Source: Demequina lutea (GTDB lineage: Bacteria > Actinomycetota > Actinomycetes > Actinomycetales > Demequinaceae). From it: DNA of 64,000 nt. The translations under genes and the position numbers were made by a program. The notes beneath the pieces are model-generated. The model saw nothing but the letters and a program-made list of their open reading frames with translations. It ran no database searches and was not told where the DNA came from. The stretch is taken from assembly GCF_013409005.1 (NCBI RefSeq), contig NZ_JACBZO010000001.1, positions 62,001 to 126,000 on the forward strand, given 5' to 3'. Positions 58,042-64,000 of this stretch are shown here, in pieces. Each line of letters starts with the position of its first letter. The stretch's first letter is position 1.

Positions 58042-59190
58042 ATGAGTGACATCTCCCTGTTCGTTGCCGTCTTCCTCGCCTGCCTTGTGGAGGCGGTTGA
58101 AGCCACGACGATCGTGCTCGCCGCCGGCACGGCGCGCCACTGGCGCTCGGCAATGCTCGGCACGCTTGCCGGGCTCGCCGTCCTGGTCGTCGCCATTGCG
58201 GTTGCGGGCCCGGCCATCTCCCACCTCCCGCTCGGCGCCTTGCGCCTCCTTGTCGGAGGGCTGCTTCTCGTCTTCGGCCTGCAGTGGATGCGCAAGGCGA
58301 TCCTGCGTGCCAGCGGCTACAAGGCGCTTCACGACGAGGCCGCGATCTACAAGAAGGAGGTCGCCGCCGCGGCTCAAGCGGAGCAGGGTTCGCGTCGCGG
58401 GGTCAAGGACTGGTACGCCTTCACGCTTTCGTTCAAGGGGGTTGTGCTCGAGGGCCTTGAGGTCGTGTTCATCGTCCTGACGTTCGGCACCAACCAGAAG
58501 AACCTGCCGGTCGCCGCTGTCGCCGCGGCCACGGCCGTCGTCATCGTGGTGATCCTGGGCGCGGTGGTGCGTGGACCGCTCTCTCGCGTGCCAGAGAACA
58601 CCCTTAAGTTCGTCGTCGGTGTGATGCTGACGGCGTTTGGCATCTTCTGGGGCGCCGAGGGCGCCGGGGCCGATTGGCCGGGCTCCGACACCTCGCTGCT
58701 CGTCATCGCCCCGGCCGTGGCGATCTTTGGCCTCGCGCTCGCCGTGGGGATGAGGCGATTCCGCGTGTCCCGCGTCCCAGCTCCCGAGCTGATCCCTGTC
58801 GGGGCTCGCGTGGGCGAGGGTTCGGTAGCTCTCACACAGACGACTCTCGCGCAGATGAATCTCGCGCAGATGAATCTCGCGCAGATGAATCTCGCGCAGG
58901 AAATCGCAGGCGCGGCGGAGGATGCTCAAGCAGCGGAGCCCGCCGCGCACGTCCGTGCCGTCGCGGTTGCGACGGAGACGCCGCAGCGAGGTCTCGAGTC
59001 ACGGCTGCGCGCCTTCGGGGCGTTCTGGTACGACTTCATCATCGGGGACGACTGGCAGGTTGCGGCGGGGGTCGCGCTCGGATTGCTCATGGTCTTCGTC
59101 GTGTCGAGCGCGTCTTCGCTCGCGTGGATCGTGATGCCCGTCGCGATCGCGGTCCTGCTTCCCTACGGCGTCAGGCGCGCCATGCGCTGA
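58042..59190 (+). CDS. COG4280-like membrane protein with FTR1-type glutamate motifs
   Basis: This 382-residue polytopic protein has about eight helices. Two repeated helices carry paired glutamates, CLVEAVEATTIVLAAG (about 14-29) and VVLEGLEVVFIVLTFG, resembling the REGLE motif of FTR1 iron permeases and of the related cation-handling families. Between the fifth and last helix pairs lies a soluble, Ala/Glu-rich segment with LAQMN repeated three times. It starts 47 bases after the importer ATPase, so it is probably in the same transcript. A role in metal transport is likely but not proven. Confidence 0.75.
   Translation: MSDISLFVAVFLACLVEAVEATTIVLAAGTARHWRSAMLGTLAGLAVLVVAIAVAGPAISHLPLGALRLLVGGLLLVFGLQWMRKAILRASGYKALHDEAAIYKKEVAAAAQAEQGSRRGVKDWYAFTLSFKGVVLEGLEVVFIVLTFGTNQKNLPVAAVAAATAVVIVVILGAVVRGPLSRVPENTLKFVVGVMLTAFGIFWGAEGAGADWPGSDTSLLVIAPAVAIFGLALAVGMRRFRVSRVPAPELIPVGARVGEGSVALTQTTLAQMNLAQMNLAQMNLAQEIAGAAEDAQAAEPAAHVRAVAVATETPQRGLESRLRAFGAFWYDFIIGDDWQVAAGVALGLLMVFVVSSASSLAWIVMPVAIAVLLPYGVRRAMR
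58846..58899 (+). repeat. 15-base in-frame tandem repeat in the COG4280-like gene
   Basis: CTCGCGCAGATGAAT occurs three times plus nine bases of a fourth copy, encoding LAQMN repeats in a cytosolic or linker segment. Confidence 0.95.
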
Positions 59191-59204: not shown

Positions 59205-59786
59205 TCAGTGGCCCTCAGGCTCCTCGACGTAGACCCGAGCCGCGTACTCCTCGAGGGCGGTTTCGCACTCCTTGATGGCGGCCTCGGCTTCCGCGCGCCC
59301 TGGGGCCACGAACTCGTCGCGAGCCTGGACCTTAGCGAGCCAGTTGACGAGCTTCGTGTGGTCGACCTCGTTCTCCTCGAGCTCGGCATACGTGAAGTGC
59401 TGTTTGTCGTATTCCTTCTGCAACTCGGCCAGGAAACCGGAGCAGCGGTCGACGATCTCCTCGTACTCGTCGGTCCGCGCCGCCTGAAAGATGGCCAGGA
59501 CATGCGATTCGCCCACCAAGACGGAGGACCTCATGAGAATTGCGGTACCCGACATTTCGGTGATGTCGTGTTGCAACTTGCGTAGCGCGCGCTCGGCCGC
59601 AGGGGTGATCGGAAGGGCGGCCACGGAGTTTTGGAGGTAGACGGCGCCGAGCGACTTGAGGCGGCGCCAGGCGGTCGCCCGGAGGCGAGTCGGCTCGGAG
59701 GGGATGCGGTAGACGAGCACAAACCAACCGGCCGACGTAGGCGGCCTGAGGGATTCTTCGTCGGCATTGGCTGAAGTCGTGCTCAC
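59205..59786 (-). CDS. ChrB-like chromate-resistance protein, N-terminal domain only
   Basis: This 193-residue protein matches the N-terminal domain of ChrB: WFVLVYRIPSEPTRLRATAW, then RRLKSLGAVYLQNSVAALP. Full ChrB has about 310 residues; the C-terminal domain is missing, a form also found alone in actinobacteria. ChrB regulates the chromate exporter ChrA, but no chrA is visible here. It is convergent with the COG4280-like gene and downstream of marR (23-base gap). Confidence 0.8.
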   Translation of the reverse strand: MSTTSANADEESLRPPTSAGWFVLVYRIPSEPTRLRATAWRRLKSLGAVYLQNSVAALPITPAAERALRKLQHDITEMSGTAILMRSSVLVGESHVLAIFQAARTDEYEEIVDRCSGFLAELQKEYDKQHFTYAELEENEVDHTKLVNWLAKVQARDEFVAPGRAEAEAAIKECETALEEYAARVYVEEPEGH

Positions 59787-60304: not shown

Positions 60305-60395
60305 AAACCGACTGTAGCGCGAACCGCATCGGTGTGCGACTATATCGGTGTCAGACATATACACGTCCCCAGTGCCTGCGACCGAACGAGGAATG
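60305..60395. promoter_or_regulatory. marR-lgt divergent promoter
   Basis: This short AT-rich stretch contains TATATCGG and GACATATA (about 60340-60360), an imperfect dyad suited to MarR binding, and the GAGGAA ribosome binding site of lgt. Confidence 0.45.
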
Positions 60396-60425
60396 ATGTT
60401 CCACATGTTCCACATGTTCCACATG
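60396..60425 (+). repeat. 9-base tandem repeat at the lgt start
   Basis: ATGTTCCAC occurs three times and is followed by another ATG, giving MFHMFHMFHM at the N-terminus, with a possible start codon in each unit. Confidence 0.9.
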
Positions 60426-61310
60426 TATATTCCCAGCCCCTCACAGGGCGTCTGGCACCTCGGGCCGGTGCCCATTCGGGCGTACGCGTTGTTCATCCTC
60501 GCGGGGATCTTCGTCGCTACCTGGTGGACCAGGCGGCGGTGGGTCGCCCGCGGCGGGGACCCGGACGACGTGCTGGATGTCGTGATGTGGGCGGTGCCAT
60601 TCGGCATCGTCGGAGGACGCCTCTACCACTTGATCACCGATCCCGAACTCTACTTCACCGCAGGGAAGGACCCCATCCGGGCGCTGTATATCTGGGACGG
60701 CGGGCTGGGGATCTGGGGCGCGGTCGCGCTCGGCATCGTCGGCGCGCTCATCGGATGCCGCCGCAAGGGGATCAGTCTTGCCGCATTCCTTGACGCGGTG
60801 GCCCCCGGTCTGATCCTCGCGCAGGCGATCGGTAGGTGGGGCAACTACTTCAACCAGGAGCTCTACGGCGGGCCCACCAAGCTGCCTTGGGCCCTGATGA
60901 TCGATCCCGCACACCGGCCAGCCGCCACGCCGAACATCGGGCTGTACCAGCCGACGTTCCTGTACGAGTCCCTGTGGGACGTGGGCGTCGCAGTGCTGCT
61001 GGTGTGGGCCGGGCGCCGGTACGCCCTGCACAACGGGCGACTGTTTGCGTTGTACGTCGCCGCCTACACGTTCGGGAGGGCCTGGGTCGAGGCGCTGCGG
61101 GTAGACCATGCGAACCACTTCTTGGGTTTGCGCCTCAACGACTGGACCAGCGTGATCGTCTTCGTGGCGGCGGTCGCGTACCTCGTGCTTCACCGGTCCC
61201 GCGCCGACAAATCGTCGACTCCCGCAGTTGAAGGGGAGCCCCCTGCGTCCGACGGGGCTCTCCTCGCCCCCGACGAAGCACCTTCCGAAGAAGCACCTTC
61301 CGAAACCTGA
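60396..61310 (+). CDS. lgt: Prolipoprotein diacylglyceryl transferase
   Basis: This inner-membrane enzyme adds diacylglycerol to the lipobox cysteine of preprolipoproteins. It has about 304 residues and seven helices. The phosphatidylglycerol-binding signature appears as GRWGNYFNQELYGGPTKLPW; IWDGGLGIWGAVALGIVG and FGRAWVEALRVD are also conserved. Five in-frame ATGs at 60393, 60396, 60405, 60414 and 60423 come from a 9-base tandem repeat (ATGTTCCAC), so the true start is uncertain; GAGGA favours 60396. The C-terminus ends in an acidic PSEEAPSE-type tail. The MFS gene follows by 12 bases. Confidence 0.92.
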   Translation: MFHMFHMFHMYIPSPSQGVWHLGPVPIRAYALFILAGIFVATWWTRRRWVARGGDPDDVLDVVMWAVPFGIVGGRLYHLITDPELYFTAGKDPIRALYIWDGGLGIWGAVALGIVGALIGCRRKGISLAAFLDAVAPGLILAQAIGRWGNYFNQELYGGPTKLPWALMIDPAHRPAATPNIGLYQPTFLYESLWDVGVAVLLVWAGRRYALHNGRLFALYVAAYTFGRAWVEALRVDHANHFLGLRLNDWTSVIVFVAAVAYLVLHRSRADKSSTPAVEGEPPASDGALLAPDEAPSEEAPSET

Positions 61311-62823: not shown

Positions 62824-63264
62824 TTAGGGCGCTTCGGTCCCCGTACCGAGAGGCGCGCGCAGCGGCCACTCGTCACCGTCGAGAACCACCTGTGCGGCGG
62901 CTCCCGTGTCAGGGTTCACCACGAGCGGTGCCAACAGATTTGCCGTGGAGGTTTGGTCCCCACCGGGGTGGACCACCGCGAGCAGCACGGCAGGCGTCGC
63001 CGCATCCAGGCCAAGGGCGGTGCGCACGCTAGCCGACACCTCGGGGGCATATCCAGGGAAGTACGCCCGTGGCGTGATCACAAACAACCGCACGCCTGGC
63101 GTTTCGAGGCTGCGCAGCGCGAACAGGAAGCCGGAATCGTCGAGCGCCGTGAGGACAAAGCGCGTCGACGTGGCCATCCCGGGAGGCGACTCCACGAAGA
63201 CGATCTCGTCGGGGAGCTCGCGCAACTTCGTGCGATCCCCGTCGATTGCGACCGCAACGCTCAT
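62824..63264 (-). CDS. fliW: Flagellar assembly factor FliW
   Basis: This 146-residue cytosolic protein binds flagellin and, in other bacteria, antagonises CsrA. The family pattern is seen in LRELPDEIVFVESPPGMATS, then FALRSLETPGVRLFVITP and AVVHPGGDQTSTANLLAPLV, with VNPDTGAAAQVVL at the end. The ATG overlaps the flgL remnant by four bases. csrA, which usually follows, is not here: the next gene is the convergent MFS exporter. Confidence 0.92.
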   Translation of the reverse strand: MSVAVAIDGDRTKLRELPDEIVFVESPPGMATSTRFVLTALDDSGFLFALRSLETPGVRLFVITPRAYFPGYAPEVSASVRTALGLDAATPAVLLAVVHPGGDQTSTANLLAPLVVNPDTGAAAQVVLDGDEWPLRAPLGTGTEAP

Positions 63265-63518
63265 CGCAGGAACTCCATGAGCGTGGGTTGCAGCACCTTC
63301 GCCGCCGCGCCAAGGGCACCGCGGTACGCGACCTGCTGCATGTTCAATTCCAAGATGGTCTCCGCCAGGTCGATGTCCTCGATGCCGGAAGTGCTGGACG
63401 CCGTGCCCTGGAGTTTGGCGGCAGTCGACCACCGAGCGTCGGACGCTCCAGAGAGGTTCGACGGCGGGTTCGCAAGCGCGTTGCGCTGAGGAATCCGCTG
63501 CGTCATTCGATGAGTCAC
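63261..63518 (-). pseudogene. flgL: Internally deleted flgL (hook-filament junction protein)
   Basis: Only 85 codons remain, against about 290 in the family. The first 20 or so residues (VTHRMTQRIPQRNALANPPS) keep the FlgL N-terminal pattern and the last 40 (IDLAETILELNMQQVAYRGA, then AAKVLQPTLMEFLR) keep the C-terminal helix. Everything between, including the exposed domain, is gone, while the frame stays open. GGAAGG precedes the GTG at 63518. Such a protein could not form the normal FlgL fold, so I call it a remnant. Confidence 0.8.
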
Positions 63519-63521
63519 GGG

Positions 63522-63726
63522 TTACCTTCCCACCAATCCTGTGCGGTTGATAAGGGCGTCAAGCATCCGGTCGACCGCCGTGAGCACGCGGGCCGCACCC
63601 TCGTAGGCCGGAAACTGAGCATGTTGATCTTCTCTTCTTCTCCATCGACTCGCGGATTGCTGCGTTGAAGGTTCTCGGCGACGCAGCGGGAGGTTTCGGA
63701 GGCGCGGTCCACCCGGAGGGACGCGT
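63522..63726 (-). pseudogene. flgK: flgK (hook-associated protein 1) C-terminal remnant with frameshift
   Basis: About 68 codons survive between flgN and flgL, where a gene of some 1.4-1.6 kb is expected. The minus strand reads VDGEEEKINMLSF, and then after loss of one base AYEGAARVLTAVDRMLDAL and INRTGLVGR, the end of FlgK. Restoring one base after TTCC (giving CAG) would rejoin the frames. There is no start codon: the remnant abuts the flgN stop. It is clearly non-functional as it stands. Confidence 0.8.
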
Positions 63727-64000
63727 CTACGTCTGAACCGAACCGCCCCTGGTGTCGGCGCTCACCGTCGCGTTCATTCCCTTGAGCGCCTCTTGAACGG
63801 CGCGCAACGACCGCGACAGCACTTCCGTATTCGAGTGGGCGAGCGCGTCGATCTGCGAGGCCACGTCCGCGAGCGCGACGTGGTGCCCGCGCAACAGGTC
63901 GTTCCACGGGCTTGGTGCGACCTTTGCGAGCTCAAGCAGCGAGGCGCCCTCGGGGACTCCCACCTCGCGCGCGGCGTCGTCCGCCTCGATCGCGCGCCCA
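63727..64000 (-). CDS. flgN: FlgN-like flagellar chaperone (N-terminus beyond window edge)
   Basis: About 91 C-terminal codons are visible; the gene enters from the right edge. Residues read GRAIEADDAAREVGVPEG, then ASLLELAKVAPSPWNDLLRG and helical sequence with SNTEVLSRSLRAVQEALKG, the pattern of the actinobacterial FlgN/FlgK-chaperone family. An internal GTG at 63963 is unlikely to be the start because the frame stays family-like upstream of it. It would normally chaperone FlgK and FlgL, both of which are broken here. Confidence 0.75.
   Translation of the reverse strand, partial: GRAIEADDAAREVGVPEGASLLELAKVAPSPWNDLLRGHHVALADVASQIDALAHSNTEVLSRSLRAVQEALKGMNATVSADTRGGSVQT

Follow-up and report, generated by a model that had tools for sequence, protein, structure and literature searches.

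The fliW gene of Demequina lutea and the gene fragments beside it are very probably what remains of a flagellar and chemotaxis cluster recently lost in one Demequina lineage. Judged by their gene content, the cells are predicted to be non-motile and unable to build a flagellum. Three regulatory genes, fliW, fliA and csrA, are full length and retain their conserved cores, the structural genes around them are deleted or reduced to scraps, and the surviving order fliW-flgL'-flgK'-flgN, fliA ... csrA has the same position and order as in flagellated congeners.

Results

The window is a stretch of 64,000 nucleotides (contig positions 62001-126000) from a genome of 3.10 Mb in two contigs that is 99.69% complete, and the site is located inside an uninterrupted contig of 3.04 Mb. 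We compared it with 24 other Demequina genomes, of which the three nearest flagellated relatives (G003, G007 and G013) were the references for DNA and protein alignment. The gene order in flagellated Demequina is fliW-flgL-flgK-flgN followed by fliA-fliC-fliD...flhA-csrA-cheA. In G003, the cluster between fliA and csrA contains fliC, fliD, flgBC, fliF, fliG, fliI, flgE, motAB, fliM, flhB and flhA, among which flagellin and flhA were identified by family search and the remaining genes were named from the translated sequence. As the nearest relatives are ~20-25% different in DNA, the exact homologies at the breakpoints are unreadable. The features of the locus, including those that lie past the end of the window, are collected in Table 1.

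Table 1. Remains of the flagellar cluster and adjoining features in Demequina lutea (window positions unless stated)
Feature	Position	Strand or direction	Description
fliW	62824..63264	-	full length, 146 aa, Pfam FliW
flgL remnant	63261..63518	-	85 codons: ~25 N-terminal and 60 C-terminal, fused in frame
flgK remnant	about 63522..63742	-	last ~70-74 codons, two frames, no start codon
flgN	63727..64000, continues to window-equivalent 64173	-	148 aa, C-terminal tail missing
fliA (sigma-28)	contig 126461-127360	opposite to flgN	intact, directly past flgN
csrA	contig 127566-127847 (window-equivalent 65566-65847)		intact, after fliA
tRNA-Leu (CAG) and insertion-sequence genes	L002:5912-6830 (contig 127912-128830)		directly behind csrA

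The product of fliW scores 88.9 bits against PF02623 (cut-off 25) and is 74-77% identical to FliW of the three reference relatives, which bears out the original prediction that this gene is intact. A family search shows that it is the sole FliW of its genome. The neighbouring flgL was predicted to be an 85-codon gene without its middle, and the comparison with relatives confirms this: FlgL has 299 codons in each of G003, G007 and G013, and 214 middle codons are missing here in a gap that preserves the reading frame. The start of the remnant is similar to the FlgL start VINRVTQQT, and its 60 C-terminal codons are 67-68% identical to FlgL of the three relatives.

Of flgK, only the end is left. 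When FlgK of G003 (486 codons) was searched with tblastn, codons 413-457 matched at 51% identity and codons 459-486 at 93% in a different frame, so that a stretch of 45 codons at the lower identity is followed by one of 28 codons at the higher. The DIDEEM motif conserved in FlgK is degraded in the remnant. The prediction of a frameshifted tail that has lost its start thus holds, but the shift had been read as a single base, and DNA alignment shows a net loss of 4 bases relative to all three references.

The claim that flgN is intact has to be given up. Its product is still recognized as FlgN by Pfam (60.2 bits, cut-off 30.5), but in an alignment of ten Demequina FlgN sequences the conserved C-terminal tail (of the 'AFLIDEAL' type) is missing only in this genome, and the gene terminates at a stop from another frame. 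On the alignment, the tail appears to have been removed by the same deletion that took most of flgK. Upstream of flgN, the GCCGATAGG box is conserved, and a search for sigma-28-like sites gave one match over 60 kb starting a little ahead of the cluster.

The original prediction had also treated csrA as missing and taken this as a sign that motility was lost. That argument is ruled out, since an intact csrA sits behind fliA, 1.6 kb beyond the end of the window; its product is full length with a Pfam score above the cut-off. In Demequina, about 28-35 kb normally separate fliW from csrA, which lies at the opposite end of the cluster, so that a missing csrA beside fliW is uninformative. In family scans, the fliA product is of the FliA/WhiG type with sigma-70 regions 2, 3 and 4.

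Inspection of the genes past position 64000, which had been suggested as a check, revealed that the largest loss falls outside the window. The distance between fliA and csrA is 205 bp here vs about 24.9 kb in G003, so that a flagellar block of ~25 kb is gone between two intact genes. Within these 205 bp, the only remnant of the block is a stretch of 34 bases (L002:5424-5458) that is 88-91% identical to the terminator hairpin just after fliC in G003, G007 and G013; ~30 bases just before csrA are also conserved. Since the hairpin after fliC was retained, fliC was probably excised separately from the larger block. In G003, csrA is followed by cheA, cheW and a chemoreceptor gene (identified from their translations rather than by family scan); in the present genome, tRNA-Leu and insertion-sequence genes take their place, and an insertion-sequence event may have removed the chemotaxis genes.

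No flagellin was found genome-wide with the flagellin N-terminal domain, and genome-wide searches for FlhA and for a chemoreceptor were likewise negative. When cluster DNA of congeners was used as the query, this genome gave just two matches, each <40 bp. The flagellin family search and the congener query thus revealed no second copies of flgK, flgL or fliC elsewhere, and this lack supports loss.

FliW, CsrA, FlhA and flagellin are found all together in 9 of the 24 congeners and are all absent from the other 15; fliW without a flagellum was seen in none of the 24. We extended the screen for FliW and FlhA to 396 genomes of the order. FliW is present in 104 of them, and FlhA is missing only in the present genome and in G073. 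The latter is a draft of 550 contigs in which an 18-kb contig bears flgK, flgL, fliC and fliD up to the contig end, and the absence of FlhA there is most likely an assembly gap. With this sole other candidate explained by a contig edge, an orphan fliW as a recurrent pattern in the order is ruled out, and among the 104 genomes that bear FliW, a true orphan was seen in the present one alone.

Selection on the retained genes was examined with a branch codon model for ten Demequina, run with our own script on a FastTree tree; pairwise dN/dS is too saturated to be used alone. For flgN, fliW, fliA and csrA together, omega is 0.085 on the branch of this genome vs 0.046 elsewhere (2dlnL 6.9), and for the three intact genes 0.072 vs 0.042 (2dlnL 4.0). 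The dead flgL fragment gives 0.111 vs 0.055, which for 60 codons only is not significant alone (2dlnL 0.9). Tested against omega=1, the own branch gives 2dlnL 52, its omega being well below 1. Omega is uneven among the other branches and lower in G003 and G013, so the rise on the own branch is mild. If the genes were normal before the loss and neutral since, the neutral share of the branch would be only about 4-6%, which fits a loss near the branch tip and hence a recent one. The branch test gives no sign of special protection of the retained genes, which show the same mild relaxation as the dead flgL fragment. This result is not proof that the regulators are useless, and purifying selection on fliA, fliW and csrA may have continued after the loss.

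Several features of the surroundings were noted in passing. In G003 and G013, the cluster is flanked by genes resembling FHA-domain, PP2C phosphatase and cell-shape genes (L064/L065, L081:1-5000); the present genome and G007 have different neighbours at fliW, so that the left flank of the cluster has been rearranged within Demequina. In the window, positions 58042-59190 encode a predicted membrane protein with a mid-gene tandem repeat of (LAQMN)-type units and no NCBIfam match. Positions 59205-59786 encode a protein with a ChrB N-terminal domain, which adjoins a MarR-like regulator, a membrane protein, lgt and an MFS efflux pump. Positions 60390-60430 carry three tandem copies of ttccacatg in the extended N-terminal coding region of lgt (prolipoprotein diacylglyceryl transferase), and the true start of lgt is possibly downstream of this repeat.

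Discussion

We propose that an unneeded cluster was deleted piecemeal, and we infer that four or more separate deletions struck it; both their number and their order are read from what is left. One deletion would have removed most of flgK together with the end of flgN, another the middle of flgL, and a third fliC, sparing its terminator hairpin. A fourth, of about 23 kb, would have run from fliD through flhA and stopped shortly before csrA. On the other side of csrA, the chemotaxis genes are gone as well, and the tRNA-Leu and insertion-sequence genes occupy their site. The small regulatory genes at the edges and in the centre of the cluster would have been spared for now, and too little time for decay is probably why fliW, fliA and csrA are still full length. 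The part of the original prediction that called for a recent loss of motility is thus strongly supported, both by the genome-wide lack of flagellin, FlhA, chemoreceptor and second copies and by the codon analysis that places the loss near the branch tip. We would like to point out that regulators make up the whole set of three fully intact genes; this may be more than chance and is a point against simple decay.

It is conceivable, though improbable, that FliA, FliW and CsrA, perhaps with the clipped FlgN, have been kept as a working regulatory module that controls genes unrelated to motility in the absence of flagellin and flagellum. In fliA, fliW and csrA the reading frame is unbroken and the core conserved, their omega is far below 1 and the box upstream of flgN is conserved, all of which would be expected of such a module. 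A precedent is Clostridioides difficile clade 5, which is non-motile, has lost most of its flagellar genes, including early ones, and retains and uses fliC, fliW and csrA (Zhu et al. 2025, PMC11898703). Both lineages keep fliW and csrA after the loss of the export machinery, non-motility in ours being predicted from genes. However, C. difficile keeps and makes its flagellin, through which CsrA is released from FliW, and the functions of its trio were tested, whereas in D. lutea flagellin has been deleted and any function of FliW and CsrA is hypothetical. Of the partner-switch checkpoint formed by flagellin, FliW and CsrA, the latter two are present and intact, but the flagellin that would compete for FliW is absent, with fliC down to its terminator hairpin. 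Moreover, the conserved tail of FlgN is gone, the omega of the kept genes rises as mildly as that of the dead flgL scrap, and fliW and csrA are both absent from the 15 flagellum-free congeners. The suggestion that fliW and flgN were diverted to another use therefore finds no support, as no congener carries fliW on its own.

That an intact cluster was collapsed by an error in sequencing or assembly is extremely unlikely: the strain is represented here by a single assembly and a small indel is among the breaks, but the contig passes straight through the site, there are several separate deletions and a degraded flgK motif, flagellin, export-gate and chemoreceptor genes are absent throughout a nearly complete genome, and a collapse requires repeats, whereas most of the genes lost here occur once in relatives.

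Recent piecemeal loss, the reading we favour, is ordinary in kind. Actinobacteria have a single large flagellar cluster that was inherited vertically and suffered massive later losses (Zhu et al. 2023, PMC10746217), and the same on/off pattern is seen among the Demequina congeners. That study recorded presence and absence by species, with Demequina not in its main text, whereas here the residue of one loss is legible at the level of single bases. Incomplete flagellar sets have also been discussed as possible remnants and loss pathways (PMC12199754). The partial sets described there comprise 16-31 proteins, while the present genome, with three regulators and a clipped chaperone, would belong to the non-motile class of that study.

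The genomes searched nearly always have a full cluster or nothing, and this strain represents a rare readable intermediate. The loss appears to have proceeded through several separate deletions, in which the structural genes went while the regulators and a terminator hairpin remained. It follows from such a locus that fliW, csrA or fliA alone is no predictor of motility.
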